Assembly (NCBI GenBank): GCA_017469275.1
Contig: JAFUGT010000071.1
Span: 1 to 51,460, forward strand
Length of the DNA stretch: 51,460 bases
DNA from: Lachnospiraceae bacterium
GTDB taxonomy: Bacteria > Bacillota > Clostridia > Lachnospirales > Lachnospiraceae
Direction: 5' to 3'
The translations under genes were made by a program, and so were the position numbers. This document shows positions 16,634 through 36,088 of this stretch, piece by piece; position 1 is the stretch's first letter; every line of letters starts with the position of its first letter. The notes under the pieces are model-generated. The model was not told where the DNA came from, did not search any database, and was given only the letters and a program-made list of their open reading frames with translations.

Positions 16634-16722
16634 GGCAAGTCCTCCTTTTCATTACTATGTTTGATCGTATTATTACTATTATTGTGGCTTATTAATTCTT
16701 ATGCTCTTTAAGAGAAAGCGGT

Positions 16723-18003
16723 TTACATAACTTTGATTCCGCCGTACTTACGGATTTTTAATACGTTGCAGGAATTATCTCCGAATATTTCATCCATTGT
16801 TGCTTTGTATTCAGTAACAGCCTCATTTTTAACAAATGCCTGAATCGTTCCGGCAAAGCCGCCCCCATGAACTCTCGCAACTCCATTATCACCTAAAGTC
16901 ATTTCACTGAGCATTAAGGCGATGGACATGTTCTGTTTATCAACCTGATGGTTGGTATATACATTTTGAAGGTACTTATAAGATGAGTCGCCGGATTTTT
17001 TAACTGCAGTTAAAAAACTGTCTATATCATTATTGTTAAGTGAATTTACTTCCTGTCTGACGCGCTTATTTTCCTCGTAAAAATGGATGGCACGAAGAAA
17101 TGCTCTGTCACCGCATTTTTCTCTGATATAAGAGGCATGAGAGAGGATATCCTCCTCAGGTATTTCGTTAAGTACACTTTTGTTAAAACAAGCGGCTACA
17201 GCTTTCATCTCTGCCGGAACAGCCGCATAATCAGGGGTAAGATCGGCGTGGGAACCTTTGGTGTCTGTGATACACAGACTGTAGCCTGCATTATCAAGAT
17301 CAAAGGTTATCTTTTCTACAACGGGATCTTCCAGATTGGCAAAATCAATGTGACACAGACTGCCTACTGAACACGCCATCTGATCCATCAGTCCGCATGG
17401 TTTTCCGAAATATACATTTTCCGCATACTGTCCGATCATTGCAATCTCAACTGCAGAGATTGACATTTTATTATACAGCCCTGAAAGTATAGTTCCAATA
17501 AGTGTTTCAAAGGCTGCGGAGGAAGAAAGGCCTGAACCGGATAGAACATTACTGGTCACGTATGCATTAAAACCACCGATGTTATGTCCGTTCTCTTTGG
17601 TTTTGGCAATTACCCCTCTTATCAGGGAGTGTGTAGTTCCTTCTTCGCTATCTGTCTTAGCTAAATTATCGAGGTCAATAGTTATCATATCATAGCCCTC
17701 TGATAATATATTGACTTTGTTATTGTCAGTCTTTGCAACAACAGCTATTGCATCGTCATTAATGGAAGCCGCGAGAACCTCTCCGTGTTGATGATCTGTG
17801 TGGTTACCGCCAATTTCGCTTCTGCCCGGTGCGGAGAAAATGCCGTCAACATTTTCCCCAAATAGTTTCTTGAAATTGTTAAGTGCTTCGATATATCTGG
17901 CTTTCTGACCTTCTACAAGGTTGCTGTCTACATAGATGTCTATTAGACGCTCATCTAGTTCACCACTTTTTAATCTGTTAATAAATGTTTCTACCTTTTT
18001 CAT
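16723..18003 (-). CDS. galK: galactokinase
   Basis: 426 residues. GHMP-kinase features in order: the galactokinase signature region GRSEIGGNHTDHQHG (about residue 61), the ATP-binding LSGSGLSSSAAFE (about 155), and the C-terminal GGGFAGTIQAF. It phosphorylates galactose to galactose-1-phosphate. AGAGGAGG stands before the start. It follows the GH42 gene by 53 bases and precedes galT, so the operon takes galactose released in the cytoplasm into the Leloir pathway. Confidence 0.96.
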   Translation of the reverse strand: MKKVETFINRLKSGELDERLIDIYVDSNLVEGQKARYIEALNNFKKLFGENVDGIFSAPGRSEIGGNHTDHQHGEVLAASINDDAIAVVAKTDNNKVNILSEGYDMITIDLDNLAKTDSEEGTTHSLIRGVIAKTKENGHNIGGFNAYVTSNVLSGSGLSSSAAFETLIGTILSGLYNKMSISAVEIAMIGQYAENVYFGKPCGLMDQMACSVGSLCHIDFANLEDPVVEKITFDLDNAGYSLCITDTKGSHADLTPDYAAVPAEMKAVAACFNKSVLNEIPEEDILSHASYIREKCGDRAFLRAIHFYEENKRVRQEVNSLNNNDIDSFLTAVKKSGDSSYKYLQNVYTNHQVDKQNMSIALMLSEMTLGDNGVARVHGGGFAGTIQAFVKNEAVTEYKATMDEIFGDNSCNVLKIRKYGGIKVM

Positions 18004-20231: not shown

Positions 20232-21242
20232 GTGAATTACGATAATGTTCAAGAGAAGATTACAATTGCAGATGTGGCAGAAGCGTTAGGCATTTCTAAG
20301 ACAACTGTTTCAAGAGCAATCTCAGGCAAAGGGCGTATCGGCGAGGAGACAAGAAAGAGAGTACTTGAGTATATAGAAGAGAACAATTATAGACCAAGTC
20401 CAACAGCAAAAGGACTTGCTGAATCCAAGACATATAATATATGTTGGGCAATGCCCGGAGATTCGAATGTAACCTCGCTTCCTTTTTTTCAAAGATGTAT
20501 GGTTGGAATTAATGATGTTGTGGTGTCTAAGGACTATGATATATTAATTTCCATGATATACGAAGATAATAATGCGCAATTAAAAAGAATTGTTAATAAT
20601 CAAAAGGTTGATGGAGTAATATTAGGTCGTACCCTTGTTAATGATGTTAATGCACGATTTCTCAAAGAAAGCGGAGTTCCCTTTGTTGTTATAGGAAGTA
20701 CTTCAGAGAAGAATGTAATCCAGATTGATAATGATCATGTCAAGGCCTGCAGAGAGCTTACATCTATTCTTGTTATGAAGGGTACTAAAAAATTTGCTCT
20801 TATCGGCGGTAATCCTGAACATGTTGTCAATAGGACAAGACTTGAAGGCTTTAAAGAAGGTCTGGAAAGTCAGAATGTTAAAATGGATGAAGATAATATA
20901 TTTATGAATTGTGAGAAAGAATCAGATGTAGAACGAGCAGTCGAACAAGCGTTATGCAACAATGTTGACTGTATACTATGCATGGATGATCTGATATGTT
21001 ACGAAACTATTGGGAAACTTCATAAAGATGAAATAACGATACCTGATAGTATTAAAATTGCTTCTTTCTATAATAGTCAGATGTTGGAGAATGTACAACC
21101 TGCTATTACAGCTCTGCAATACGATCCCAGAGAACTTGGGTCGGTAGCAGCAAAGACTCTGTTTGACTATATTGAAGGAAATGAAGTGAAAGAGAAAGTT
21201 TTATTAAGCTATGAAGTATTATTAAAAAATTCCACACAGTGA
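20232..21242 (+). CDS. LacI/GalR-family transcriptional repressor of the galactan locus
   Basis: 336 residues. The N-terminal DNA-binding domain has the classic pattern ITIADVAEALGISKTTVSRA (about residues 11-30) and the hinge-helix NNYRPSPTAKGLA (about 55-67). The rest is a periplasmic-binding-protein-like ligand domain. The inducer is presumably galactose or a short galacto-oligosaccharide. The GTG start at 20232 has AGGAAG upstream and no ATG fits the HTH better. It is divergent from GH42-galK-galT and next to the transporter, and the shared 15-base operator at both promoters and at the secreted galactanase is its likely target. It ends at a strong terminator. Confidence 0.93.
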   Translation: MNYDNVQEKITIADVAEALGISKTTVSRAISGKGRIGEETRKRVLEYIEENNYRPSPTAKGLAESKTYNICWAMPGDSNVTSLPFFQRCMVGINDVVVSKDYDILISMIYEDNNAQLKRIVNNQKVDGVILGRTLVNDVNARFLKESGVPFVVIGSTSEKNVIQIDNDHVKACRELTSILVMKGTKKFALIGGNPEHVVNRTRLEGFKEGLESQNVKMDEDNIFMNCEKESDVERAVEQALCNNVDCILCMDDLICYETIGKLHKDEITIPDSIKIASFYNSQMLENVQPAITALQYDPRELGSVAAKTLFDYIEGNEVKEKVLLSYEVLLKNSTQ

Positions 21243-21545: not shown

Positions 21546-22862
21546 ATGAAGAAAAAAGGTTTAGCTTTATTGATGGCGGCAACCCTTGCTTTTGGAGCAC
21601 TTGTAGGCTGTGGAGGAGGAGAAGCTTCACCGGCGGCAGAAGACAGTACACAGGCCGCTGACGACAGTGCTGCCTCAGACGATTCGGCACCTGCAACAAA
21701 CGAAGATGCAGTCGCTAATTTGGTGGCAGCTACCAAAGACACAGTTGCAATGGCTGTATGGGCTTCAGAAGAGGATCAGGAGTTTACACAGGGACTTATC
21801 GATAGTTTTAAATCACAATATCCGGATGTGACTTTTGATATTACTCTTGGTGCTAAGTCAGAGGCAGATGCTAAGGATGATGTACTTGCAGACGTTGAGG
21901 CTGCACCTGATGTATATGCCTTCGCTGATGATCAGATTAACGAACTTGTCAATGGCGGAGCACTTCAAGAGGTTGTCAGCACCTACACATATGATGTTAA
22001 GGATGAGAATCTTGCAGGTTCGGTTGAAGCTGCAACACTTAATGGTAAGCTGTATGCTTATCCAATGACAGCAGATAATGGATATTTCTTATATTATGAC
22101 AAGTCAGTTTTCTCTAATGTAGATTCATTAGATTCAATGATTTCAGAAGCAGATGCAGCCGGTAAGAAGATCGCTATGATGGTATCAAACGCTTGGTATA
22201 ATTATGCGTTTTTCAAAGGTGCAGGATTTGATGTGTCACTTAATGAGGATGGTGTTACCAATACATGTAACTGGAACGCATCCGGAGCAACAGATGTTGC
22301 GCAGGCAATTATCGACCTTGGAAAGACGGGAACATTTATTGATGCCAAGGAAGATGCAGATATTGTAACAGGTATTACAGACGGAACGATCGCAGCAGCA
22401 GTTTCAGGTGTATGGAACGCAGATGCAATTAAAGAAGCATGGGGCGACAATTTTGCAGCTGCAAAACTTCCTACATTCACATGTGGTGGTAAACAGGTTC
22501 AGATGTCATCATTCTCAGGTTATAAGATGATCGGTGTTAATCCTCATTCTAAGAATGTTGGTTGGGCTATGCTCCTCGCAGAATACCTTACAAATGCAGA
22601 AAATCAGGTAGCTCGTTTTGAAGCCAGAGGACTTGGTCCTGCTAACACAGAAGCAGCAGCTTCAGAAGCAGTTCAGGCTTCTCCGGCAATCGCAGCACTT
22701 GCAGAGCAGGCAGCATATGCAACTCCTCAGCGTGTTGGTGGTAACTACTGGGATCCTGCCAATACACTTGGTCTTACATTGATTTCAGGTAATCCGGACG
22801 GGACAGATCTTCAGACATTACTTGATAATGCAGTAGAAGGTATTACAGCTCCTGTAGAGTAA
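21546..22862 (+). CDS. ganS: sugar ABC transporter substrate-binding lipoprotein (MalE-like)
   Basis: 438 residues. A lipoprotein signal ends in LVGC (Cys22), followed by an acidic Ser/Asp/Ala-rich linker to about residue 55 and then a maltodextrin-type solute-binding domain. The protein would sit on the outer face of the membrane and deliver oligosaccharide to the two permeases encoded next. Its position between the galactan regulator and the galactanase genes points to beta-1,4-galacto-oligosaccharides, equivalent to GanS/CycB of Bacillus; binding specificity is inferred. AAGGAGG precedes the start. Confidence 0.9.
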   Translation: MKKKGLALLMAATLAFGALVGCGGGEASPAAEDSTQAADDSAASDDSAPATNEDAVANLVAATKDTVAMAVWASEEDQEFTQGLIDSFKSQYPDVTFDITLGAKSEADAKDDVLADVEAAPDVYAFADDQINELVNGGALQEVVSTYTYDVKDENLAGSVEAATLNGKLYAYPMTADNGYFLYYDKSVFSNVDSLDSMISEADAAGKKIAMMVSNAWYNYAFFKGAGFDVSLNEDGVTNTCNWNASGATDVAQAIIDLGKTGTFIDAKEDADIVTGITDGTIAAAVSGVWNADAIKEAWGDNFAAAKLPTFTCGGKQVQMSSFSGYKMIGVNPHSKNVGWAMLLAEYLTNAENQVARFEARGLGPANTEAAASEAVQASPAIAALAEQAAYATPQRVGGNYWDPANTLGLTLISGNPDGTDLQTLLDNAVEGITAPVE

Positions 22863-22897
22863 TTAATCAGACAGATGGTAATTATATAACAACATAT

Positions 22898-22927
22898 CGG
22901 GCAGTACGTAATATGCTGCCCGAATTT
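22898..22927 (+). terminator. intercistronic hairpin after the binding-protein gene
   Basis: CGGGCAG (22898-22904) pairs with CTGCCCG (22916-22922), followed by only AATTTT. This is a weak terminator or 3'-end stabilising hairpin between binding-protein and permease genes, a usual way of making more binding protein than permease. Confidence 0.65.
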
Positions 22928-22972
22928 TGTAGAAAAAAATAGTGGTTTTTCGATAAAATGAGAGGAGATCTT

Positions 22973-24430
22973 ATGAAAGATAACACAAATAAAAAGGAAC
23001 GTTTTTCATTCGTCGGTTATTTCAAAGATCTGGTTACGGCAATTGCCAAAGGCGATTGGTCTGTCAAACTCTCCATGCTTTTTATGGGAGCAGGATATAC
23101 ATTTCATAAGCAGGTTATAAAAGGTATCCTTGTTACAATAATCGAAATTGCTTTCATCATGATGTGTATTTTCTATGCTGCCCCTAATCTTGCAAAGTTT
23201 GGAACGCTGGGAACAGTTCAGTTTGAACAGGTACTTGATCCGTTGACATTACAAACAACAGTTAATGATTATGATAATTCATTTACAATTTTGCTTAATT
23301 CTATTATTGCATTATTCCTAATAGTGTGTTTTGTATTCTTCTGGATTAGCAATATGAAGTCTGTATATCGTCTGCAGGTAATCGACAATGCACCGGATTC
23401 ATTATTAAAAAAACGTATTAATACATTTATAGAAGATATTAATTCTTTATTTTCAGAGAAGTTTCATCTAACATTACTTGCACTTCCTACATTGGGCGTA
23501 ATATTGATGAATATTATTCCAATCTTTGTAATGATTGCCATAGCATTTACCAATTACGATCAGTCACATATGCCACCAAATGCACTGTTTACATGGGTTG
23601 GTTTTGCCAATTTCAAAAATATACTTGCTAACTCAATGACAGTAACTTTTGGATATGCTTTTAAGAAAATACTGGGATGGACATTGTTATGGGCGGTGCT
23701 TGCCACACTGACAACATTTATATTTGGAGTTCTTTTGGCGATGTTCATTAACAGTAGGACAACCAAATGGCCCAAGATGTGGAGAACACTTTTTATTGTG
23801 GCAATTGCGGTACCTCAGTTTGTGACTTTATTACTTGTAAGATATTTCTTCGGAGATACAGGTATTGTCAATTCGATTTGCAGTAATTTAGGTGTAACTG
23901 AATTTTTGAAAAGTGTGGGGTTGGTTAGTCAACATCTCAATTATATTCCATTTCTTTCATCCGAGCATTGGGCAAAATTCATGATAGTAATGATTAATAT
24001 ATGGGTTGGTGTGCCTTATCAGATGCTGATTGCAACAGGTGTACTTATGAATATTCCGGGTGATCAGATAGAAAGTGCAAAGATTGACGGTGCTAACAAG
24101 TTCCAGACTTTTGTCAGTATAACAATGCCATACGTACTATTTATTCAAGGTCCTTCACTTATAACAGACTTTGTTAAGAATATTAATAACTTTAATGTTA
24201 TTTATCTTTTAACCAACAATTCATTTATTACACCGGATCAGGCACTTGCCAATTCAAATGCAAAAGAAGTGGACCTTCTTGTAACATGGTTGTTCCGACT
24301 CACTAATGAATATTACAACTATAAGATGGCTTCTGTAATAGGTATTATTGTGTTTATTATAAGTGCAGTATTCACGATTCTATCATTTACCAGAATGATA
24401 GCAGGAGATAGAGAGGGGGATTATCAATAA
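22973..24430 (+). CDS. ganP: sugar ABC transporter permease (MalF-like)
   Basis: 485 residues with about eight membrane helices. The ~130-residue N-terminal extension with extra helices is typical of MalF/GanP. The EAA-loop, contacting the ATPase, is NIPGDQIESAKIDGANKFQTF region near the C-terminus. ATG 22973 is chosen because AGAGGAG lies just before it, rather than ATG 22958. The stop codon overlaps the start of the next permease by one base (TAATG). The substrate is inferred from context as galacto-oligosaccharides. Confidence 0.9.
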   Translation: MKDNTNKKERFSFVGYFKDLVTAIAKGDWSVKLSMLFMGAGYTFHKQVIKGILVTIIEIAFIMMCIFYAAPNLAKFGTLGTVQFEQVLDPLTLQTTVNDYDNSFTILLNSIIALFLIVCFVFFWISNMKSVYRLQVIDNAPDSLLKKRINTFIEDINSLFSEKFHLTLLALPTLGVILMNIIPIFVMIAIAFTNYDQSHMPPNALFTWVGFANFKNILANSMTVTFGYAFKKILGWTLLWAVLATLTTFIFGVLLAMFINSRTTKWPKMWRTLFIVAIAVPQFVTLLLVRYFFGDTGIVNSICSNLGVTEFLKSVGLVSQHLNYIPFLSSEHWAKFMIVMINIWVGVPYQMLIATGVLMNIPGDQIESAKIDGANKFQTFVSITMPYVLFIQGPSLITDFVKNINNFNVIYLLTNNSFITPDQALANSNAKEVDLLVTWLFRLTNEYYNYKMASVIGIIVFIISAVFTILSFTRMIAGDREGDYQ

Positions 24431-25272
24431 TGAAGAAGAAAGTTGGATCGTTTTTCCATCATTTATTACTTATAATCCTTGTGGTTATATGGCTTATCCC
24501 GATTCTCTGGCTTGTGGTTACGGCCTTTAGCGGTTATCCGGGAATTAATAAGACACATTTCTTCCCGGAAACGTGGACAATTAGTAACTTTACAACATTG
24601 TTCTTAAAACCTGATTCAGTTGTACAATACGGAAGATGGTTTTCAAATACACTGATAATTGCAATATTTACTTGTATCATTTCTACAGTGTTTGTGCTTA
24701 TGGTAAGTTATGCATTCAGTTGTATGAGATTTAAGGGAAGAAAGACATTAATGAGTTTGTCACTTATACTTAATATGTTTCCGGGTGTTCTTTCGATGAT
24801 AGCTGTGTATTTTGTATTGAAGTCATTAGGGCTTACCAATAGTCATCTGGGAATGATCATTGTATACTCGGCAGGCTCGGGACTTGGATATCTGATTGTT
24901 AAAGGATTTATGGATACAGTTCCTGTTTCACTTCGTGAGGCGGCAAGACTTGAGGGTGCATCGGAGTTGCAGATATTTACCAAAATTATGCTTCCGATTT
25001 GTAAGCCGATCATCGTTTATCAGGTTATTAATTCCTTCCTGTTGCCTTGGGGTGATTTCGTTTTTGCGAAATTGATGCTGAATTCAGGTATTTCAAAGGA
25101 TTATACAGTAGCGATTGGTCTTTACAATATGTTAGACAGATCCTTGGTTAACCAGTATTTTTCAATATTCTGTGCAGGCGGCTTTATAGTTTCAATTCCT
25201 ATCTCAATTCTCTTCATAATAATGCAGAAATTTTACGTAGAAGGTGTTACAGGCGGTTCTGTTAAGGGTTGA
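24430..25272 (+). CDS. ganQ: sugar ABC transporter permease (MalG-like)
   Basis: 280 residues and six predicted membrane helices, the standard MalG size. The EAA-loop EAARLEGASELQIFTKIMLP is intact. It overlaps the preceding permease gene by one base, showing tight translational coupling. No ATPase gene is present in this operon or elsewhere in the window, so the importer should borrow a shared MsmX-type ATPase. A strong terminator follows. Confidence 0.92.
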   Translation: MKKKVGSFFHHLLLIILVVIWLIPILWLVVTAFSGYPGINKTHFFPETWTISNFTTLFLKPDSVVQYGRWFSNTLIIAIFTCIISTVFVLMVSYAFSCMRFKGRKTLMSLSLILNMFPGVLSMIAVYFVLKSLGLTNSHLGMIIVYSAGSGLGYLIVKGFMDTVPVSLREAARLEGASELQIFTKIMLPICKPIIVYQVINSFLLPWGDFVFAKLMLNSGISKDYTVAIGLYNMLDRSLVNQYFSIFCAGGFIVSIPISILFIIMQKFYVEGVTGGSVKG

Positions 25273-25320
25273 TATGCTGTACTAAATGTGTCTGGACATT
25301 TGTTTCAAGACAGTAATTAT

Positions 25321-25376
25321 GCACCCGGCTTATCCCTATCGTTAGATTGAAGCTGCGGATGAGTCGGGTGTTTTTA
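25321..25376 (+). terminator. intrinsic terminator of the transporter operon
   Basis: CACCCGGCTTATCC (25322-25335) pairs with GGATGAGTCGGGTG (25357-25370), with two mismatched or wobble positions, followed by TTTTTATA. Confidence 0.8.
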
Positions 25377-25453
25377 TATCCGGAAGTAGTAAAATGAAGG
25401 ATAAAAAAAGGATTATATAGTAATTATGAATATTTTTATTAAGGAGAGTAGCG

Positions 25454-27295
25454 ATGGACAATACATTTGTTGTTAATATTATTCATCGTCCGGAAATGGT
25501 TCCTGAGTATGCGGAAAAAGTTACCGGACAGGGTAAAGCGGAAGATATCGGCAGAAAAGCATTACTGACTGAATCGTTGGATATCTTCAAATTTCAACAG
25601 GAGACTGCACATAAGAATGGACTGAAAGTTACTATTCAGATGACTTATGCCAGTCTGTTTAATGATGAGGCATGTGAACTTGCGAAAAAAGATCATGAAC
25701 AATATGGAGACGAGATAGCTCTCTCGTTATTGGGATTACCATGTAAGGAGTTTCGAGAGAAATATAAAACCAAAGATTTTTGTATATGGATGTTCTCTAT
25801 GGAGGACAAAAAGAGTATTGTGGATGATGTATTTGGAAAGTTTTATGACCGGTTTGGATTCTATCCTGAATCCACAGGCTCTTATTACATGGATGCAGAA
25901 CTTACGAATTACATTAAAGAAAAATATCCTATGGTAAAATGTGCAGTTGCAACATGTTGGGAGGAAGGACCTAAGGCATATCATACCTGTAATAATTCCT
26001 GGTATACATTGTTTGATGGTGGTCCGTGGAATCCATGGATTCCTTCAAAGCAGAATACACATGCGCCTGCTGCAAATGAAGCAGAGGACAGTGGTATTGT
26101 TGCCATACCTCATTTGTCAAGGGATCTTCTTGCATGTTATGACGGCAATGGTTCCAATTTCGGAACACATCCGCAAAATGTTTTGCGTGGAATGATTTAT
26201 GATACAAAAACATGGGAATATCCCTATCTTTATAATCTGATAGACCAATACAGATATTTGGCAAAATTTAATAATGGCTATTCTTATAACATGATGTTTG
26301 TAGGCCCCGGATGGCTTAATAAGATGGGTAGATGGGAGCAGCCTTATGAACTTCTTAAAAAGTCATATGAGGATGGAATGGCTTATTATGGGGAACTCAA
26401 GAAGAAGGGTGAACTCATTGATATGACGATGGCGGAGTTCGCAGATTTCTATCGCAAGAACAAGTCGTATGAGGAGCCGGAGTGTGCATTATGGAAGGAT
26501 ATTCTATACGGCTCTGATAAACAGCTTTTCTGGTATGCTGACCCATATATGAGAGCTTGTGTTAATATGGATCAAGGTGGTGCTGTTGTTGATTTGAGAC
26601 CATATGCATCTAAGATCAAATGGGAGGTTGGAATCGGAACTAAGCATGTACAGGATGCATCATATCCATTTCTGATACAGGAAAAATACAGAGCAGGTTA
26701 TTTTACTCACTATGCGGGTGAGGGTACTGTTCGGTCAGCAAAAGTCTCTTATAACGGAGAGGAAGTAGACCTTTGCCTTTGCAGAACTCATGCAACTTTT
26801 TCACAGGAAGGAAAGAAGAGAATTCTTACACTTGATCCTGTTGAAATAGAGTTTTATGATCTCACGGTTAAGATTGGAACAAGAATTATTTTTGAAGAAG
26901 GTTCATCTAACATACAACATGAAAGAACGATTCTTGAAATGAGCAACCCTGATGCAGAGGTTGAAATAAATGAATATATAGTTGCCTGTTATGGAACAAC
27001 AGAATATCCTGAAGATATGACGGGGATTACTCTCGGGGTTATAGGCGATAATGGTGAAAAGACAATTAATTACGAATACAAATGTCGGGATGAGAAATTA
27101 GAAGGTGCTTCAGATGCTTTTGCAGTAATTCCGGCAATTGATACAAAGGTTTCTCTTTCAACTGATTCAAAAGAAGGATTAGGATATATAGAGGAGGGAT
27201 ATGCATTTTCACCTATGTTTAAACTTGGATATAAAAAGCATATTTCTGATAAGGAGGTAATTAAGACATGGCTCAATCTGGAAAAGGCAAATTAA
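25454..27295 (+). CDS. uncharacterised 613-residue cytosolic protein of the galactan locus
   Basis: I do not recognise a family. It has no signal peptide and no membrane helix, so it is predicted cytoplasmic. The N-terminal ~380 residues alternate strands and helices in a barrel-like way and are rich in aromatic residues (NNSWYTLFDGGPWNPWIP, WYADPYM), as in carbohydrate-binding clefts. HGLKV-like QMTYASLFND, HEQYGDEIALSLLG and GSYYMDAEL loosely recall barrel-type glycosidases or NodB-like deacetylases, but no diagnostic catalytic motif could be fixed. The last ~230 residues look beta-rich (KISF-type strands). AAGGAGAG precedes the start. The next gene starts inside its end. Position between transporter and GH53 suggests a role in galactan-derived sugar metabolism; that is inference only. 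Confidence 0.75.
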   Translation: MDNTFVVNIIHRPEMVPEYAEKVTGQGKAEDIGRKALLTESLDIFKFQQETAHKNGLKVTIQMTYASLFNDEACELAKKDHEQYGDEIALSLLGLPCKEFREKYKTKDFCIWMFSMEDKKSIVDDVFGKFYDRFGFYPESTGSYYMDAELTNYIKEKYPMVKCAVATCWEEGPKAYHTCNNSWYTLFDGGPWNPWIPSKQNTHAPAANEAEDSGIVAIPHLSRDLLACYDGNGSNFGTHPQNVLRGMIYDTKTWEYPYLYNLIDQYRYLAKFNNGYSYNMMFVGPGWLNKMGRWEQPYELLKKSYEDGMAYYGELKKKGELIDMTMAEFADFYRKNKSYEEPECALWKDILYGSDKQLFWYADPYMRACVNMDQGGAVVDLRPYASKIKWEVGIGTKHVQDASYPFLIQEKYRAGYFTHYAGEGTVRSAKVSYNGEEVDLCLCRTHATFSQEGKKRILTLDPVEIEFYDLTVKIGTRIIFEEGSSNIQHERTILEMSNPDAEVEINEYIVACYGTTEYPEDMTGITLGVIGDNGEKTINYEYKCRDEKLEGASDAFAVIPAIDTKVSLSTDSKEGLGYIEEGYAFSPMFKLGYKKHISDKEVIKTWLNLEKAN

Positions 27296-27480
27296 ATTAT
27301 CGTTGTCCGCTATGCTTTATGAGAGATTTGGATATAGATATGTTCTACGACAAAGACAAGAAAGAATATTACTGTCTGCGTTGTCAATATACCGGTGATG
27401 AGGCGGATGTTCTGGCAAAGAATGAAATTATACGTATAAAGTACGGGAGAATGTATGATCGCATAACAGACTTTGATTAA
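27268..27480 (+). CDS. small zinc-ribbon protein
   Basis: 70 residues. Two CxxC knuckles (CPLC near residue 13 and CLRC near residue 37) form a probable zinc ribbon, followed by a basic/acidic helix. It overlaps the end of the 613-residue gene by 28 bases in another frame and has its own GGAGG upstream of ATG 27268, which supports real translation. Function unknown; possibilities are a regulator, a chaperone or a partner of the upstream protein. Confidence 0.72.
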   Translation: MAQSGKGKLNYRCPLCFMRDLDIDMFYDKDKKEYYCLRCQYTGDEADVLAKNEIIRIKYGRMYDRITDFD

Positions 27481-27500
27481 AATATTAATAATAAATGCGT

Positions 27501-27515
27501 TTCGCAATTACCTAA
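27501..27515 (+). repeat. leader box copy 1 (TTCGCAATTACCTAA)
   Basis: A 15-base sequence in the leader of the cytosolic GH53 gene, 33 bases before its start codon. Near-identical copies stand before ribBA (36903) and before a HAD phosphatase (46014). Confidence 0.55.
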
Positions 27516-27548
27516 ATGTTATTATGTTGTGAAAGGAGTAGCATTATA

Positions 27549-28652
27549 ATGGATTTTATAAAAGGAATGGATGTTTCGACTTTGATAGAGGAAGAGGCAT
27601 GTGGGGCAAAATACTATGATCATGGTGAACCGGGAGAATTGCTGCAAATCCTTAAAAAATACGGGTGCAATTCTGTTAGACTTAGATTATGGAATGATCC
27701 TTACGATGAAAATGGAAATCCTTACGGAGCCGGAACCAATGACCTTACAAAAACCATTGCTCTTGCCAAGAGGGCAAAATCACTTGGAATGAGTGTATTG
27801 ATTGATTATCATTACAGTGATTTTTGGGCTGATCCGGGAAAACAAGTTGCACCTAAAGCTTGGAAGAGTTATAATACGGATGAATTGGAAAATGCGGTAT
27901 ACGAATATACCAAAGAAACTATGTTAAAGCTCAAGGCTGAAGGAGTATTACCGGAGTTAGTACAGGTAGGTAATGAGATAACTAACGGTCTTTTGTGGCC
28001 TACCGGGAAAAAACCGGAGTTTGATAATATCGCAAGATATGTAAGTGCAGGTATTCGCGCTGTCAGGGAAGTGTCTGATAAAACACTCATAATGATACAT
28101 CTTGACAATGGTGGTTTTAATGATATGTATGTAGAATGGTTTGATAACTACTTAAAGCGTGGAGAAGATTTCGATATTATAGGACTTTCGTATTATCCGT
28201 TTTGGCATGGAAGCATAAATGAGCTTGACTATAATATGAATGATATGGCTAAGAGATACGGAAAGAAGATATGTATTGCCGAAGTTTCTATGGGATTTAC
28301 TATGGAAGATTATCGCTCATATGAGCAATTGCCGTTGGAACAGCTTAAAGGTATGGCAACGAAAGAGGAGCTTACAAAGAATCTTGATTATCAGATGACG
28401 AAACAGGGACAAAGCGATTTTATTAAGGATATTATGACAAGAATATCTAAAGTATCCGGTGGAATTGGTTTTTATTATTGGGAACCCGGATGGATTCCTG
28501 TTCCGGGTTGTGGATGGGCTAATGAGGCAGCTCTTGAATTTACCGGTGAGAAAGGCCCCGGTGGTAATGAATGGGCTAATCAGGCTTTGTTTGATTATGA
28601 TGGCAATGCGTTGCCTGCGTTAGAGACTATCAGGGATTTTACTTTTAGCTGA
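27549..28652 (+). CDS. cytosolic GH53 endo-beta-1,4-galactanase
   Basis: 367 residues, essentially a bare GH53 barrel. Catalytic residues are the acid/base E143 in VQVGNEITNG and the nucleophile E245 in CIAEVSMGF. The family hallmarks VRLRLWNDPYDENG and DYHYSDFWADPGKQ are intact. It has no signal peptide, so it should act on imported galacto-oligosaccharides. ATG 27549 is chosen because AAAGGAG lies ten bases before it; an upstream TTA/ATG reading lacks one. It shares the catalytic fold with the secreted enzyme at 31979 but none of its accessory modules. Confidence 0.93.
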   Translation: MDFIKGMDVSTLIEEEACGAKYYDHGEPGELLQILKKYGCNSVRLRLWNDPYDENGNPYGAGTNDLTKTIALAKRAKSLGMSVLIDYHYSDFWADPGKQVAPKAWKSYNTDELENAVYEYTKETMLKLKAEGVLPELVQVGNEITNGLLWPTGKKPEFDNIARYVSAGIRAVREVSDKTLIMIHLDNGGFNDMYVEWFDNYLKRGEDFDIIGLSYYPFWHGSINELDYNMNDMAKRYGKKICIAEVSMGFTMEDYRSYEQLPLEQLKGMATKEELTKNLDYQMTKQGQSDFIKDIMTRISKVSGGIGFYYWEPGWIPVPGCGWANEAALEFTGEKGPGGNEWANQALFDYDGNALPALETIRDFTFS

Positions 28653-28696
28653 GAAAATAGATATTTATAGTGTATAGTTCTTGGTATCATTTATTA

Positions 28697-28710
28697 CCTC
28701 ATTAATGAGG
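28697..28710. repeat. palindrome at the ribosome site of the sensor-GGDEF gene
   Basis: CCTCATTAATGAGG is a perfect 14-base palindrome whose right arm is part of the GAGGAGGA ribosome site (28707-28714) before ATG 28720. It could be a small hairpin limiting initiation or a protein-binding site. Confidence 0.5.
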
Positions 28711-28719
28711 AGGATAGTT

Positions 28720-30654
28720 ATGAAGAAGATTGCTGTAATTATGGAAAGCTGGGTGAGGTGTTTTACTTTTGCCTGGCCTTCCGGAATGTTAAAAAGAATT
28801 AGGGAAATTGATGAAGAAATCAATATCTATATATTTAACTGCTCAGCTAATTGGAGTAGTGATCTTCTTTACAATAAGGGAGAATATAATATTTTTAATC
28901 TGCCGGATTTTTCCGATTTTGACGGTATTATACTTGATCTTAATAATACGAAGGATGAAAATGTAAGAAACAGGGTTATTGAAAGAACAAGATTATCCGG
29001 AGTTCCTGCAGTAGTTATCAACAATCAATATGATGGTTTATATTCAGTTGGGATTGATAATTATAATGCAATGAAGAGAATGGTGGATCATCTTTATCGG
29101 GAGCATAAATGCAGAAGATTCTGGTTTATTATGGGGCCTGATAATAATTATGAAAATAATGAGAGATCAAAAGCCCTTAGAGACTACATGGAAGATAATA
29201 GCATTCCTTCAGATGACTATTCTTTTTATTATGGTGATTTTGATTATAACAGCGGTGTACTTGGTTTTAACGAATTGTTGGATAAGTTCGGTAAACTTCC
29301 GGACGCCATTATGTGTGCTAACGATAATATTGCAGTCGGTTTTATTTCAGAAGCTGAAAAGCATGGATATAAAGCGCCTAAGGACTTCCTTATAACAGGC
29401 TTTGATGATTTAGATAAATCAAGATATTATATACCCAGAATTTCGACGATCAGTTATATTCGTGAAGATATAGGATATAAATGCATAGATATGTTTTTAA
29501 ATATCTGGTCAGGTGTTGAACTTCCTGCAAAATGCTATACGGATTCCCGTCCTATATTTTGGGAAAGTTGTGGTTGTCCTTCGGCGATATCTGTAAAAAC
29601 CAGAAATAAGATGAAAAGTAATATCTTATGGGAAATAGAAAGAGAATATTTTGAGGGTAATGTACTTACATTGGATTCAAAACTTGCCGGCTGTGAGACG
29701 ATAGATGAGATGGCAGAATGTATACTGGAAAGTGTTCCGACATTTAATTGTGATGCTATGTATTTCGTTATGGACAAGCATTTGGTTGATATCAACAATA
29801 TGGAGATTGAAGATGTAGATATTGATAAGATCTCCAATTATGATGATCATTTTTTAGTTGAAGGCTATCCTGAAAAAATGACGATATTGTTCTCTTATGA
29901 AAAAGGAAAGAGGACAAAAATTCCGGAGGATAGAAAAGTAATAGATGGACTTTTTCCGGCATTTGATCTGGAGTCGGGCGGGGCGAATTTTTTGTTTTTG
30001 CCCCTACATTTTCGCGATAAATGTATAGGATATTTTGCCATAAAAAATGCTATATATCTTATGGAGAAGCAATTTTTATTTGAAATAGTTAATGCGATTA
30101 TTACAGGTATTGAACAGCTCTATGCAAAACAGAAATTGGCAAGAATGAATAGGGCACTGTCACTACTGTATCATCATGATGCAATGACCATGGTCTACAA
30201 TCGGTTTGGTTTTGCACATTATGCACATAGATTATTTGATGAAGCAAAAGAGAGCGGCAAAGCAATATCCGTCATTTATTATGATCTGGACAGATTGAAA
30301 TATCTAAATGATAATTATGGTCATGATATGGGAGATAAAGCCATCAAAACTGTGGCTCAATTGATCAAAACATATTCTTCAGATAAAGCATTGGTGTTCA
30401 GACTTGGCGGTGATGAATTCCTGGCATTGGATTATTATATTTCCGAAGAATTAGTCAAAGAAACGATTGATAAGGTTAAGGAAGAACTGCGTCGGATAAG
30501 TAAAGATGATAGTTACCCGATTGACCTTTCGGTCAGTGTGGGTTATGCTATTAGTAATCCTTTAACTAATGAGGAATTGGATTTCTATGTGAACATGGCA
30601 GATGATATAATGTATCAATCAAAGGTCGAAAGAAAAATGAATAGACGAGATTGA
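28720..30654 (+). CDS. LacI-like sugar-sensor domain fused to GGDEF diguanylate cyclase
   Basis: 644 residues, predicted soluble and cytoplasmic. Residues 1-300 resemble the effector domain of LacI/XylR-type regulators (start KIAVIMESWVRCF, then PAVVINNQYDG, PDAIMCANDNIAVGF and LITGFDDLDKSRY), but no helix-turn-helix precedes it. A middle region (about 300-470) may be GAF-like. The C-terminal GGDEF domain (about 480-640) has YYDLDRLKYLNDNYGHDMGD and an intact GGDEF at residues 563-567, so it should be catalytic; the RxxD inhibitory site is missing. ATG 28720 follows GAGGAGGA. It lies between the cytosolic GH53 gene and galE, so it may sense galactan sugars and set c-di-GMP level. Confidence 0.88.
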   Translation: MKKIAVIMESWVRCFTFAWPSGMLKRIREIDEEINIYIFNCSANWSSDLLYNKGEYNIFNLPDFSDFDGIILDLNNTKDENVRNRVIERTRLSGVPAVVINNQYDGLYSVGIDNYNAMKRMVDHLYREHKCRRFWFIMGPDNNYENNERSKALRDYMEDNSIPSDDYSFYYGDFDYNSGVLGFNELLDKFGKLPDAIMCANDNIAVGFISEAEKHGYKAPKDFLITGFDDLDKSRYYIPRISTISYIREDIGYKCIDMFLNIWSGVELPAKCYTDSRPIFWESCGCPSAISVKTRNKMKSNILWEIEREYFEGNVLTLDSKLAGCETIDEMAECILESVPTFNCDAMYFVMDKHLVDINNMEIEDVDIDKISNYDDHFLVEGYPEKMTILFSYEKGKRTKIPEDRKVIDGLFPAFDLESGGANFLFLPLHFRDKCIGYFAIKNAIYLMEKQFLFEIVNAIITGIEQLYAKQKLARMNRALSLLYHHDAMTMVYNRFGFAHYAHRLFDEAKESGKAISVIYYDLDRLKYLNDNYGHDMGDKAIKTVAQLIKTYSSDKALVFRLGGDEFLALDYYISEELVKETIDKVKEELRRISKDDSYPIDLSVSVGYAISNPLTNEELDFYVNMADDIMYQSKVERKMNRRD

Positions 30655-30686
30655 AGTTAAAACTATGATATCAGGAGGAAGAGAGT

Positions 30687-31703
30687 ATGAGAATTTTAGT
30701 TACCGGAGGAGCAGGTTATATAGGGAGTCATACCTGTGTAGAGCTGTTAAATGCAGGCTATGAGGTTGTGATTCTTGATAACCTCTACAACTCAAGTAAG
30801 AAAGCAGTGGATAGGATACAAGAGATAACAGGTAAGTCTGTAAGTTTTTATGAGGATGATATGCTTGATGCAGATGCTTTAGAGCAGTTGTTTACAAAGG
30901 AAAAAATAGATTGTGTTATTCACTTTGCGGGACTTAAGGCTGTAGGTGAATCTGTTGCAAAGCCGCTAGAGTATTACAAGAACAATATTCAGGGAACTCT
31001 TACTTTGGTTGAGGTGATGAGAAAACATGGTTGTAAGAATATCATTTTTTCTTCATCAGCTACAGTATATGGCGATCCTGCATTTGTTCCTATCACTGAA
31101 GAATGTCCTAAGGGTACACCGACAAATCCATATGGGTGGACAAAAAGTATGTTAGAGCAGATATTAACTGATCTTCATACTGCAGATGAGGAATGGAATG
31201 TTATTCTTCTCCGATATTTCAATCCGATAGGAGCTCATAAGAGCGGTAAGATTGGAGAAGATCCCAAGGGAATTCCTAATAATCTTCTTCCTTATGTTGC
31301 TCAGGTAGCTATAGGAAAATTGGAGTGTGTCGGAGTATTTGGTAACGATTATGATACACCGGATGGAACGGGAGTGCGTGATTATATTCATGTAGTGGAT
31401 CTTGCTAATGGACATGTTAAGGCTATAGACAAGATAAAGGAAAATCCCGGAGTTAAGGTGTATAATCTGGGCACAGGCAATGGATACAGTGTTCTGGATG
31501 TTATCAAAGCATTTTCAAAGGCTTGTGGACATGAGGTACCATATCAAATCAAACCCAGAAGACCGGGTGATATTGCAACCTGTTATGCGGATGCAAGTCT
31601 TGCCAGGAAAGAGCTTGGCTGGGAGGCACAGTATGGTATAGAGGAAATGTGTGCTGATTCTTGGAAGTGGCAGAGTATGAATCCGAATGGATATAATGAT
31701 TAA
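30687..31703 (+). CDS. galE: UDP-glucose 4-epimerase
   Basis: 338 residues, standard length. NAD-binding GGAGYIGS at residues 7-14, catalytic S124 in SSSATVYG, and Y149/K153 in NPYGWTKSM. It interconverts UDP-galactose and UDP-glucose, completing the Leloir pathway begun by GalK and GalT in the leftward operon. CAGGAGG precedes the start. It follows the sensor-GGDEF gene by 32 bases and ends at a terminator. Confidence 0.96.
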   Translation: MRILVTGGAGYIGSHTCVELLNAGYEVVILDNLYNSSKKAVDRIQEITGKSVSFYEDDMLDADALEQLFTKEKIDCVIHFAGLKAVGESVAKPLEYYKNNIQGTLTLVEVMRKHGCKNIIFSSSATVYGDPAFVPITEECPKGTPTNPYGWTKSMLEQILTDLHTADEEWNVILLRYFNPIGAHKSGKIGEDPKGIPNNLLPYVAQVAIGKLECVGVFGNDYDTPDGTGVRDYIHVVDLANGHVKAIDKIKENPGVKVYNLGTGNGYSVLDVIKAFSKACGHEVPYQIKPRRPGDIATCYADASLARKELGWEAQYGIEEMCADSWKWQSMNPNGYND

Positions 31704-31750
31704 AGGTGAATTAAATAATATTTTTTAATTATGGTTACAGGTAAGTTTAA

Positions 31751-31786
31751 GGATGCGCATCCTATAAGGTGTGTGTCCTTTTTTTC
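31751..31786 (+). terminator. intrinsic terminator after galE
   Basis: GGATGCGCATCC (31751-31762) pairs, with wobble pairs and one bulge, with GGTGTGTGTCC (31768-31778), followed by seven T residues. Confidence 0.75.
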
Positions 31787-31978: not shown

Positions 31979-34900
31979 ATGAGGAAATTTTTCAAAAGAT
32001 TTACTGCCGGGGTAATTGTTGCTGCAATGGTAACATCAGTGGTACCTACATTACCGGTTATAATTTCGAATGCTGAAGAAGCACAGTGGAAGACAACGGA
32101 ACTTGTTGCAAATGGAGATTTTGAATCATGTACTGATTCCGAGATTAGCAGTTGGAGTGTTAGTTCATGGCTGGCAAGTAATGGCTTATGGCATGCTGAC
32201 CTTAGTTCAGATGAATATTCTAACAACGCTTCGACAGCGTTAAAGACTAATAATGATTCTGATGATATATCTTCAATGGGGATAAGTCAGAAAATATCTG
32301 TAGAAAAAGCCGGTATGTATAAAGTTAGCGTTCGTTCTATGGGAACAGCAAATGTGAAATCCGGTATTTCTTTGACTATATCAGATGGTACCAATACAAA
32401 GAGCGTTGAGTTAAATGAAACTGATGAATGGGGAAAGTGGGTTACATCAGAAACAGAGGGAATATCCGTTTCTGATGAAAGCATGTTGACTGTCTCTTTG
32501 AATGGTTCTGTTCCTTCAAAATATTATGGTTACATAGACGATGTCATTATATCATATGCAGAGGAGCAGGCATCGGATGAACCGGCCGGATTTGTCGAAA
32601 AAGATGGTTGGGAATGGATTGATTCAGAGAAAATAGTAAATGGTGATTTTGAAACCGGTGATACCTCAGATTGGACAATTACAAATGATTCGTTTGCTAT
32701 AGATAACGGAACGAAGAATAGTGGAGATTATGCGATTAAGACAAAATGGTCTGATAGTGATCCGGTTGAAACTTCCGTTACACAAACTGTCAAATTGGAT
32801 ACAGGTTGGTATTACCTTTCATATGCTCAGGAGGGTGATAGTAATGTGTCCGGACTTACTGTTTCTATAGGAGATATCTCGTCAGTATGCGAAGCAACAA
32901 CCGGATGGGATGATTGGAAAACATGCTATCTGGAACAATTCTATGTTTCAGAAGAGAAGGATTATACAATAAGTATAACTGGTTCGGTTCCGGCCGGATA
33001 TTGGGGAAGCATTGATGATATTATTCTCTATAAATATTCTGAAAAACAAGAAGATACTACAATATATGGCGCAGAAATATCAGTAGATAAAGTAGAGAAT
33101 CTTTCAGATGATTTCATGCTTGGAACAGATATATCAGCCGTTCAGTCTATTTATGATAGCGGTGCTTCTTATTGGGATGAGGATGGAAATAAGTTGGATG
33201 AAGCAGGGTTCTTCAGACTTTTGGCAGATCATGGTGTTAATTGGGTTCGTATACGTGTATGGAATAATCCTTATGACGCTAACGGTAACGGATACGGAGG
33301 CGGTAATAATGATATTGAAAAAGCACTAAAAATGGGAAAATATGCTACTGATGCCGGAATGAGAGTTTTAATAGATTTTCATTATTCGGATTTCTGGGCT
33401 GACCCGGGCAAACAGCAGTCTCCTAAGGCGTGGAAAGAATATACGATTGAACAGAGGGCAAATGCGGTATATAAATTTACAAAGGACTCTCTTGAAAGTT
33501 TAAAAGAGGGCGGAGTAGATGTAGGAATGATTCAGGTTGGTAATGAGACTACTGCAGGAGCTATCTGTGGTATTTCTCAGAATGACTGGGAAAATTCCTC
33601 AAAGATATTTGCCGCAGGAAGTAAGGCTGCCAGGGATGTAGATGAAGACATTCTTGTAGCAGTTCATTTTACCAATCCTGAGAAACAATTATATTCTTCA
33701 TATGCAGAGAAACTGGATACATATGAGGTGGATTATGATGTTTTTGCAAGTTCATATTATCCATCATGGCATGGGTCTCTTAGTAATCTTAAGTCGGAAC
33801 TTGATAAGATAGGAAATACATACGGTAAGAAGGTTATTGTTGCAGAGACTTCTTATGCATGGACCCTTGAAGATGGCGATGGACATGAGAATACTATAAG
33901 GAAAGGTAATAATGATTCAGGTAACGATATGCTATATCCGTTTTCTGTTAATGGTCAGGCAAAATGGGTAAGAGATGTTATTGACACGGTTAATAAAACA
34001 ACTAATGGATCTGGAGTATTCTACTGGGAAGCAGCATGGATTCCTGTACATAAATATGAAGAATCAGCAGAGGATGCAGCAGAAGTTTTGGAAGCTAATA
34101 AACAAAAATGGGAGCAATTCGGTTCGGGATGGGCTTCAAGTTATGCCAGCGAGTATGATCCGAATGATGCCGGCAAATGGTATGGTGGTTCAGCCATAGA
34201 TAATCAGGCATTCTTTGATTTTGACGGAAAAGTTCTTCCATCGCTCAATGTTTATAATTATATAAAGAGCGGAGCGGCAGCAGAAATAGTAAATGTAGAT
34301 TATATAGAGCCTGTGAGTGCTACGGTTATTTACAACGACAACTTATCTGATAACATAAAGAGTGCTCTTCCGGGTAAGGTTAAGGTTGTAATGAGCGATG
34401 CAACTTCGAAAGAGGTTGATGTTACATGGAGTGACGAAGCTATTAGCAAGGTAACCGGAGTTGGAAAATATGAAATTAGTGGTGAGATTGAAGACAGTGA
34501 TGTGAATGCTTTGTGCGTTTTGGATATCATGCCGGAAAATCTGCTTGCTGATTTCAATTACAGTTTTGAAAATGATGATGAAGGTTGGGAAATAGTAGGA
34601 AGTGGATGCAACGTTACAAAAGACGATGTATATGAAGGAGAAAAAGGTCTGCACTACTGGAAAGAAACAGCAGATACATTTACCGCACAACAAACCATTA
34701 GATTAGAGCCGGGAGTATATTCGCTTACAGCCTGTGCGGAAGGTTATGAAGGAGACGAAGGGATTCTGTTTGCACAGGTCGGTGAGGATGAACAACTTAA
34801 ATCAGAATTTCAACTTTCCGGTTGGGCAAGTTCTTCATCAAAAGATTCACCAAATTGGAAGAAGCCACTGATAGAGAATATTACCGTTAAGAAAAACAGT

Positions 34901-35833
34901 GAGTTTACATTCGGTGTAACAATGAATTATCAGGATGGAGGTTGGGGAACAATTGATAACTTCTATCTCTTTAAGACGGATGATGTAGACGATACAACTG
35001 ATAAAGAAAAAGAGGAGGCAGAAAAGGCAGCAAAGGAAGCAGCGGAAAAGGCAGCAAAGGAAGCAGCTGAGAAGAAGGCGGCAGAGGAGAAAGCAGCAGC
35101 TGAAAAGAAGGCAGCAGAGGAGAAAGCAGCAGCCGATAAGAAAGCGGCAGAGGAGAAAGCAGCAGCTGAAAAGAAGGCAGCAGAGGAGAAAGCGATAGCC
35201 GAGAAGAAGGCTGCACAGGCAGTTGGCGCGGCATTGGATTTTGCCTCGACAAGTACAAAGTATAACATAGTTACATCTCCTGTATCGGCTTCAAGTACAC
35301 CGACAGTCGAGTTTTCCGGAACAACGAATAATACATCGGCAGTTGTAACAATTCAGAATACAGTTAAAGATGCATATGGAGTAGAGTATGCGGTAACTAA
35401 AATTTCTGATAATGCATTTAATTCAAACAAGGTCATCACAGATGTGACTATCGGAGCAAATATAACAGAAATTGGAAAATACGCATTTAAGAATTGTAAG
35501 AAATTAGAACGTGTAATTATTCATGGTGACAAAATAACAAAAATTGATGAAGGTGCATATAACGGAGCAAAGTCACTCAAGTCAATTGATATGTCAAAAT
35601 GTAAGTTGAAGGTAATTGGAAAGAATGCTTTTAGTAATTGCAGGAAGTTAAGCAGCATCAAAATTAATGGTAATAAACTTGAAACCGTTGGGAAAAACGC
35701 GTTCAAGAATATTAAGAAAAACGCCATGATTACCATATATGCAAAGGATAAAAAGACATATAAGAAGGTAGTTAAGCTTATTAAGAAATCCGGTGCCAAG
35801 AATGTCAAGTACAAATACATTAAAAGAAAATAA
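31979..35833 (+). CDS. ganB: secreted modular GH53 endo-beta-1,4-galactanase with CBMs and LRRs
   Basis: 1284 residues. Modules in order: signal peptide (about 1-36); two related beta-sandwich modules (about 40-195 and 215-355), each beginning NGDFE and ending G-IDD, probably CBM61-like galactan binders; GH53 barrel (about 380-765) with acid/base E523 in IQVGNETTAG and nucleophile E623 in VIVAETSYAW; a bacterial Ig-like module (about 775-855); a third CBM-like module (about 855-1000) ending GGWGTIDNFYLF; a 75-residue Ala/Glu/Lys-rich spacer (about 1006-1080); and BspA-type leucine-rich repeats (about 1125-1284). No LPXTG, SLH or membrane tail is visible. AAGGAGG precedes the start. Regulated by O3. 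Cuts galactan outside the cell. Confidence 0.93.
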   Translation: MRKFFKRFTAGVIVAAMVTSVVPTLPVIISNAEEAQWKTTELVANGDFESCTDSEISSWSVSSWLASNGLWHADLSSDEYSNNASTALKTNNDSDDISSMGISQKISVEKAGMYKVSVRSMGTANVKSGISLTISDGTNTKSVELNETDEWGKWVTSETEGISVSDESMLTVSLNGSVPSKYYGYIDDVIISYAEEQASDEPAGFVEKDGWEWIDSEKIVNGDFETGDTSDWTITNDSFAIDNGTKNSGDYAIKTKWSDSDPVETSVTQTVKLDTGWYYLSYAQEGDSNVSGLTVSIGDISSVCEATTGWDDWKTCYLEQFYVSEEKDYTISITGSVPAGYWGSIDDIILYKYSEKQEDTTIYGAEISVDKVENLSDDFMLGTDISAVQSIYDSGASYWDEDGNKLDEAGFFRLLADHGVNWVRIRVWNNPYDANGNGYGGGNNDIEKALKMGKYATDAGMRVLIDFHYSDFWADPGKQQSPKAWKEYTIEQRANAVYKFTKDSLESLKEGGVDVGMIQVGNETTAGAICGISQNDWENSSKIFAAGSKAARDVDEDILVAVHFTNPEKQLYSSYAEKLDTYEVDYDVFASSYYPSWHGSLSNLKSELDKIGNTYGKKVIVAETSYAWTLEDGDGHENTIRKGNNDSGNDMLYPFSVNGQAKWVRDVIDTVNKTTNGSGVFYWEAAWIPVHKYEESAEDAAEVLEANKQKWEQFGSGWASSYASEYDPNDAGKWYGGSAIDNQAFFDFDGKVLPSLNVYNYIKSGAAAEIVNVDYIEPVSATVIYNDNLSDNIKSALPGKVKVVMSDATSKEVDVTWSDEAISKVTGVGKYEISGEIEDSDVNALCVLDIMPENLLADFNYSFENDDEGWEIVGSGCNVTKDDVYEGEKGLHYWKETADTFTAQQTIRLEPGVYSLTACAEGYEGDEGILFAQVGEDEQLKSEFQLSGWASSSSKDSPNWKKPLIENITVKKNSEFTFGVTMNYQDGGWGTIDNFYLFKTDDVDDTTDKEKEEAEKAAKEAAEKAAKEAAEKKAAEEKAAAEKKAAEEKAAADKKAAEEKAAAEKKAAEEKAIAEKKAAQAVGAALDFASTSTKYNIVTSPVSASSTPTVEFSGTTNNTSAVVTIQNTVKDAYGVEYAVTKISDNAFNSNKVITDVTIGANITEIGKYAFKNCKKLERVIIHGDKITKIDEGAYNGAKSLKSIDMSKCKLKVIGKNAFSNCRKLSSIKINGNKLETVGKNAFKNIKKNAMITIYAKDKKTYKKVVKLIKKSGAKNVKYKYIKRK

Positions 35834-35891: not shown

Positions 35892-35911
35892 GACATATGT
35901 GTTAACCGAAT

Positions 35912-36042
35912 ATTCTTCAAGGCGGAGTGAAAGTCTCCACCGGCGGTGTGTGAATAATAATCATATTCATAAGCCCGCAAGCCACATGGCATGAACCGGT
36001 GTGATTCCGGTGCCGACAGTATAGTCTGGACGAGAGAAGATG
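35912..36042 (+). ncRNA. FMN riboswitch (RFN element)
   Basis: The conserved segments occur in the right order: TTCTTCAAGGCGG, GTGAAAGTCTCCACCGGCGGT, AAGCCCGCAAGCC, TGATTCCGGTGCCGACAGT and AGTCTGGACGAGAGAAGA, with the closing P1 stem TCTTC/GAAGA. Binding of FMN should favour the terminator at 36089, stopping riboflavin synthesis when the cofactor is plentiful. Confidence 0.97.
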
Positions 36043-36088
36043 TAATGATAGGTATTTGATATGAGTATTATATTGGGTATGTGATCAT

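Follow-up and report, generated by a model that had tools for sequence, protein, structure and literature searches.

A gene at positions 28720-30654 of the window, the 51,460-nucleotide stretch of DNA analysed here, encodes a protein in which a LacI-type sugar-binding fold, a GAF-like domain, a long helix and a GGDEF domain are predicted to follow one another. This gene, the sensor cyclase gene, lies in a plus-strand row (21546-31703) of genes for a GanS-like protein, two permeases, a 613-residue protein, a GH53 galactanase, the sensor cyclase and galE. The features of the locus are as follows.

15128-18003 (-): galT and galK, by domain scan
18057-20039 (-): GH42 beta-galactosidase, by Pfam
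20232-21242 (+): ordinary LacI-family repressor with a helix-turn-helix, by Pfam
21546-22862 (+): GanS-like solute-binding protein (SBP_bac_8; 89.5 bits with the NCBI GanS model, far below its cut-off of 700)
22958-24430 (+): ABC permease (BPD_transp_1), GanP-like by position
24430-25272 (+): open reading frame for an ABC permease, GanQ-like by position and reading, with homologues in the same order
25454-27295 (+): conserved 613-residue protein (P613) with no family match
27516-28652 (+): GH53 galactanase (Pfam 1.3e-123), directly upstream of the sensor cyclase gene, with no hydrophobic N-terminus by hydropathy and no signal peptide
28720-30654 (+): sensor cyclase gene, 644 residues, by open reading frame, Pfam, AlphaFold2 and Foldseek
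28720-29589 (+): LacI-type sugar-binding fold without a helix-turn-helix, residues 1-290, by Pfam, phmmer and Foldseek to LacI and CcpA cores
28750-28776 (+): loop signature W11..W19, with both tryptophans in 20 of 85 aligned rows, all within the clade of the window protein
29566-29577 (+): SCGC motif where the sensor fold ends, residues 283-286, each residue present in 81-83 of 85 homologues
29617-30153 (+): GAF-like domain, residues about 300-478, by predicted fold (Pfam GAF weak)
30076-30174 (+): long helix joining the GAF-like domain to GGDEF, residues 453-485, by DSSP of the model
30172-30636 (+): GGDEF domain, residues 485-639, by Pfam and residue alignment; the GGDEF motif lies at 30406-30420
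30687-31703 (+): NAD-dependent epimerase of the GalE type (Pfam), beginning 32 bases after the sensor cyclase gene
31979-35833 (+): large GH53 protein with CBM_4_9, Big_4 and LRR_5 domains (Pfam), secreted according to a reading of its N-terminus

The open reading frame spans 28681-30654 (+), and translation from the ATG at 28720 yields the 644 residues. Pfam matched Peripla_BP_3 over residues 122-270 (2e-19), Peripla_BP_1 over residues 68-262 (1.1e-12) and GGDEF at 3.4e-31 (108.6 bits against a curated cut-off of 23.8). No helix-turn-helix family of the kind that marks a LacI/GalR transcription factor was matched by Pfam at E≤1, in contrast to the neighboring repressor (20232-21242), which does carry one. 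Consistent with the profiles, a Foldseek search with an AlphaFold2 model built from six sequences (window, L006, L007; mean pLDDT 78.8) was headed by LacI and CcpA cores (∼290 columns, E 4e-14), with target-normalised TM scores of 0.62-0.80 among the LacI-type matches listed. The best solved sequence relatives of residues 1-290 were the ancestral LacI 9nt3 (the best phmmer match, 5e-19) and CcpA; 9nt4 is the same ancestral sequence as 9nt3, solved with D-fucose. The original prediction had placed the gene between a galactanase and galE and had read its N-terminal ∼300 residues as a LacI/XylR-like domain without a helix-turn-helix, and both descriptions are borne out, the latter by profile and by the PBP-like fold of the model. 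It was wrong, however, in describing the sensor as fused directly to the cyclase, because a separate GAF-like domain of ∼180 residues sits between the LacI-type fold and GGDEF. Further, the highest 19-residue Kyte-Doolittle mean of the window protein is 1.1 (values above 1.8 occur in 3 of 85 homologues), so that by hydropathy a membrane segment is not likely and the protein would be soluble; a membrane-bound or exported PBP receptor was ruled out on the same maximum.

To compare individual residues we used an alignment of 85 full-length homologues, from which duplicate rows (L089 and L116, overlapping loci) and matches below 195 bits or spanning fewer than 500 residues had been left out. The positions that align with the sugar anchors of LacI are R149 (84/85), N201 (78/85) and D229 (84/85); their counterparts in Escherichia coli LacI, R197, N246 and D274, are presumably the residues that hold the sugar. 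The loop with W11 and W19, which by analogy with LacI we take to line the cleft (the pLDDT of the model is low in this loop), is covered by 24 of the 26 clade rows, 20 of which have both tryptophans. The four that do not are L050, L055 and L057, which are the three clade rows whose genomes lack GH53, and L045, which is accompanied in its genome by a second copy with both. Because L148, L205 and L206 keep both tryptophans in genomes without GH53, the signature is no proof of the ligand, and as a predictor of GH53, a use that was found after the fact, it was rejected.

The middle part of the protein (residues about 300-478) matched no Pfam family, and a profile search of PDB sequences gave nothing of note. 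Among 48 homologous middle segments, two were matched by Pfam GAF, weakly (best E 0.031). A separate model of this part (four sequences, pLDDT 71.5) had GAF-containing structures as its top Foldseek matches, namely PDE6 (best E 2.5e-05), ptsP GAF domains, PDE5, phytochromes and Lcd1 with cAMP, and the isolated GAF domain 3ci6 was matched at E 8.6e-04 with a TM score to the target of 0.57 and an rmsd of 5.1. The full-length model also aligned over its middle part and GGDEF domain with Dcsbis (4zmu), which we take to have a GAF domain, and with an Idiomarina phytochrome cyclase (5llw). With moderate confidence, the middle domain is thus predicted to have a GAF fold, and it may carry a second input.

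We next considered the catalytic site. The window protein has D522, D524, N530, D539, the GGDEF motif (residues 563-567) and K635; the pattern DxD, N, D, GGDEF, K comprises the catalytic and metal residues of a diguanylate cyclase. Of these, D522, N530 and D539 are present in all 85 homologues and K635 in 84, and the letters of the motif itself are kept in 83 (G563), 83 (G564), 84 (D565), 84 (E566) and 78 (F567). A degenerate GGDEF domain was ruled out by the kept catalytic residues, in agreement with the intact motif that had been predicted. The predicted lack of an RxxD inhibition site also holds, since the corresponding positions are S554 and A557 and RxxD occurs in one of the 85 aligned homologues. 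The Hypr type of GGDEF, which makes cGAMP, has serine in place of aspartate at the base-contacting residue that corresponds to D539; this change is absent from the alignment, where D539 is kept in 85/85, and a cGAMP-type GGDEF is therefore disfavored.

The place of the gene beside galactan genes recurs elsewhere. Three homologues in Gan rows, L037, L038 and L006, share 49-62% identity with the window protein. L037 has the order LacI, GanSPQ, P613, GH53, sensor, galE; L038 shares this order except that a GH42 gene precedes GH53 and galE is absent behind the sensor; in L006, whose contig starts at GH53, the row is confined to GH53, sensor and galE. (G1092, with locus L204, and L006 may belong to the same species.) In L194, from another family (genome G867), LacI, GanSPQ, P613, GH53 and the sensor follow in the same order, and here the sensor gene (L194:7946-9409, minus strand) ends after the GAF-like part, without GGDEF; the second gene behind it encodes a protein with an HD domain (HD_5). 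In L195 (G520), GH42, LacI and GanSPQ are followed by three other genes and then by the sensor cyclase and a GH13 gene; this stretch is without GH53, of which the genome has one elsewhere. In L061 the sensor gene adjoins a GH53 gene and is broken into two open reading frames, with GGDEF on the separate one after the break. The six operon rows (window, L006, L037, L038, L194 and L195; rows L164 and L163 stand for the last two in the tree) form one clade with support of 99-100. P613 matched nothing in Pfam, NCBIfam or PDB sequences, yet its counterparts in the Gan operons of L037 and L038 are 85-89% identical to it, and that in L194 is 77% identical; from this sequence conservation it is likely an unrecognised part of galactan use. 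A hairpin with a T-run lies 3′ of galE (31749-31780), and it is only suggestive because such sites are no commoner than in shuffled sequence: counts in the promoter and terminator scan did not clearly exceed those of shuffles (72 vs 64.3; 8 vs 8.4).

In relatives of the window protein, sensor, cyclase and galactanase are joined in one polypeptide. Single open reading frames of 1127-1143 residues encode the LacI fold, the GAF-like part, GGDEF, GH53 and a C-terminal part with no Pfam match where it was scanned. Seven are full length (L054, L059, L060 and L143 by Pfam; L214, L215 and L216 by BLAST), and one of them lies in a single-contig genome (G708). Three more are incomplete: L065 and L150 are cut at the 5′ end by contig ends, and genome G285 has the halves on two contigs (L058 and L197), which we infer to be one gene. 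Pairwise identity among the seven full fusions is 49-81%, and all of them retain the GGDEF motif together with the two glutamate motifs of GH53, whose glutamates we take to be catalytic. Such fusions occur in 5 of the 397 genomes of the window's family (G285 not counted) and in 1 of 392 in an order-wide draw; in the genus of that carrier they were present in 4 of 60 genomes, that genome included. In the tree, the fused clade (nine rows, support 100) lies within a subclade of 22 rows (support 100), and the operon rows fall in the other subclade, of 18 rows (support 91). The order of parts also differs, GH53 lying before the cyclase in the operon and behind it in the fusion. A coincidental neighborhood was ruled out by the place that the sensor keeps beside GH53 or Gan genes elsewhere and by this second clade fused to GH53. 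A more distant member, L152:8914-13218, combines a LacI-type fold, GGDEF and a GH3 glycosidase in a single open reading frame of 1435 residues; this type was found in one of the two genomes of its genus.

On a family-wide scale, the sensor cyclase was matched at E≤1e-50 in 72 of the 397 genomes of the window's family, and a class-wide draw gave 20 of 391 genomes at E≤1e-40, five from the same family and 15 from three other families; the two relatives that bear a name are Lachnospiraceae. GH53 is present in 23 of the 26 genomes that carry the wider clade (both subclades) vs 62 of the 371 others (p 4e-14), a comparison over 397 family genomes that is not corrected for ancestry. Sensor and GH53 counts were taken as one 397-genome draw, judged from the genome handles, and the broken gene L061 and the 5′-cut fusion of G006 were counted as clade carriers by similarity rather than by tree. 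When the 10 physically linked genomes were set aside, 13 of 16 clade carriers still had GH53 (p 7e-8); among the other carriers of the sensor family, 12 of 46 did. Within single genera the association was not significant, with GH53 in 2 of 4 carriers vs 1 of 22 in the own genus (p 0.052) and in 11 of 12 vs 31 of 42 in a second genus (p 0.26), so some of the family-wide association may be due to lifestyle or ancestry. This genus scan covered 80 of 86 genomes, six g292 non-carriers of low completeness having been left out, and a g292 carrier was a genome with a match at E≤1e-150 covering the sensor part (12 of 60), weaker members counting as non-carriers.

Four further proteins with such a sensor are encoded in the own genome, two with GGDEF and two with EAL. 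The latter, L117:6961-10320 (-) and L119:133-3495 (-), have the LacI-type sensor in front of an EAL phosphodiesterase, that is, of the opposite output. L151:8974-13023 (-) encodes 1350 residues with EAL, a LacI-type sensor and two GGDEF stretches, and by eye its N-terminal part is hydrophobic.

The galactan links could instead reflect where plant-fibre bacteria keep a sensor for a more general sugar signal, such as glucose, maltodextrin or a common hexose phosphate. We consider this alternative unlikely, although several clade loci speak for it. Genes of alpha-glucan metabolism adjoin five of them (a phosphorylase gene at L041, GH13 at L054, GH13 at L195, GH77 and GH13 at L205, and GH77 at L206), a GH13 gene lies two genes away from a sixth (L149), and a gene of the fucose kinase/pyrophosphorylase type adjoins L044. 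The survey that the original prediction had called for, of whether homologues always sit in glycan loci, gave a negative answer, since many clade members lie among housekeeping genes (mostly judged by eye), and the three W11/W19 members in GH53-negative genomes point the same way. Against a general signal, two separate clades are tied to galactan, one by operon and the other by GH53 fusion, and the co-occurrence with GH53 persists in the unlinked genomes.

In the own genome, a c-di-GMP-I riboswitch (56.6 bits, C56:5726-5801) lies ∼100 bases before L193:5901-7946 (+), which encodes a 682-residue protein with fn3 and weak transglutaminase-like matches. A PilZ protein near the riboswitch scored 24.5 bits against the Pfam cut-off of 22.5 when scanned directly, whereas a whole-genome search at E≤1e-3 had returned no PilZ protein. 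With a riboswitch and a PilZ protein in the own genome, c-di-GMP can be read there.

Overall, we consider it probable that the window protein is a soluble, cytoplasmic one-protein receptor in which a LacI-type fold binds a galactan-derived sugar and controls c-di-GMP synthesis. We infer the ligand, the sign of control (raising or lowering synthesis) and the output. Galactan fragments made outside the cell would enter via the Gan-type transporter and then be used by GH53, GH42 and Leloir enzymes; an imported galacto-oligosaccharide or galactose, the most likely ligand, would bind the LacI-type fold in the cytoplasm. Closure of the cleft on the sugar could act through the GAF-like domain and the helix to change the GGDEF dimer and hence the level of c-di-GMP, which the riboswitch and the PilZ protein could then read. 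The physiological output would perhaps be attachment or surface behavior on plant fibre. The original prediction of a switch from cytoplasmic sugar to c-di-GMP is accordingly upheld in part: the soluble LacI-fold input, the intact cyclase motif, the kept place in the Gan operon, the GH53 fusions and the family-wide co-occurrence with GH53 favor it, and the intervening domain, the homologues outside glycan loci, the clade members beside alpha-glucan or fucose genes, the lack of galE behind the sensor in L038, the non-significant comparisons within genera and the one operon homologue without GGDEF do not.

That last homologue, L194, which keeps the operon place, the sensor and the GAF-like part, would suit a LacI-type fold that is a mere carbohydrate-responsive scaffold or competitor, with a cyclase output incidental to the galactan locus. 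However, the window protein, L006, L037, L038, L195 and the fused open reading frames retain GGDEF with both the motif and the active-site residues, and in L061 GGDEF persists even after the gene break, so we regard such a role as very improbable. Least probable of all is that the protein responds chiefly to a nucleotide or another ligand bound by the GAF-like domain, the LacI-type fold being a minor or lost site: a GAF-like fold does separate sensor from cyclase, and the cAMP-binding GAF of Lcd1 is among its matches, but R149, N201 and D229 are nearly invariant in the 85 homologues, compared with one invariant column in the 48 GAF-like segments.

In the fused relatives, where receptor, cyclase and galactanase share one polypeptide, a single molecule could, tentatively, detect galactan fragments, emit the messenger and destroy the signal. 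It would be a self-terminating flux sensor, in which hydrolysis clears ligand beside the receptor and the signal tracks flux; the messenger or the cyclase might in turn influence the hydrolase. The operon of the window would then be a two-gene version, and the GH3 protein L152 suggests that such proteins may have arisen more than once.

The window protein resembles LacI/GalR repressors (ancestral LacI 9nt3-9nt5, CcpA and CelR, 5ysz) in its sugar-binding core fold and anchor positions but differs from them in having no helix-turn-helix and a cyclase as output. Its middle part and GGDEF domain give long Foldseek alignments with the GAF-GGDEF cyclases Dcsbis and the Idiomarina phytochrome cyclase; unlike these, it has an extra LacI-type domain in front and no known chromophore. 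Architectures of this kind are already known. In the sections of a 2022 review cited here (PMC8846402), Periplas_BP, which is of the LacI type, is listed among the putative sensors of c-di-GMP proteins with no validated role, SBP_bac_3 is the only member of the PBP clan described as studied, with RmcA as the example, and for sugars the case given is EIIA-Glc, a PTS protein of Vibrio cholerae. The PBP-clan proteins covered there share with the window protein a fold of the Venus-flytrap type as input to GGDEF. They are, however, treated as periplasmic, whereas the window protein has no membrane segment by hydropathy, a LacI-type fold, and a row of sugar-degradation genes or, in its relatives, a hydrolase fusion. 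c-di-GMP is also coupled directly to a glycoside hydrolase in the case of GlgX, a glycogen-debranching enzyme that it activates (PMC9530166, in the part cited here); there the messenger binds the enzyme, whereas the GH53 fusions carry cyclase and hydrolase on a single chain. A HAMP-GGDEF protein labelled "GH53" by a server, in the part of PMC5457731 cited here, is not the same thing, and the part of PMC10333796 cited here mentions neither LacI nor a hydrolase. In the open-licence literature we found no study of a LacI-type member of this architecture, of a LacI-type cyclase in a galactan locus or of a cyclase-glycosidase fusion. It is the fusions of sensor, cyclase and hydrolase that are most novel and that could surprise.

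Little is known about how the sugars of plant fibre are linked to c-di-GMP in the Clostridia that live on it, and a soluble LacI-fold protein with a clear genetic context allows a guess at the ligand. A single polypeptide that combines receptor, cyclase and glycosidase would be an example of a second messenger coupled to catabolic flux, and this layout could be used as a sensor module that converts sugar into a messenger signal.

Two minor observations concern the remainder of the window. A second GGDEF gene, without a LacI-type sensor, lies at 344-1423 (+). Following the galactan locus, an FMN riboswitch at 35909-36045 (+) precedes riboflavin genes, which were named by reading.
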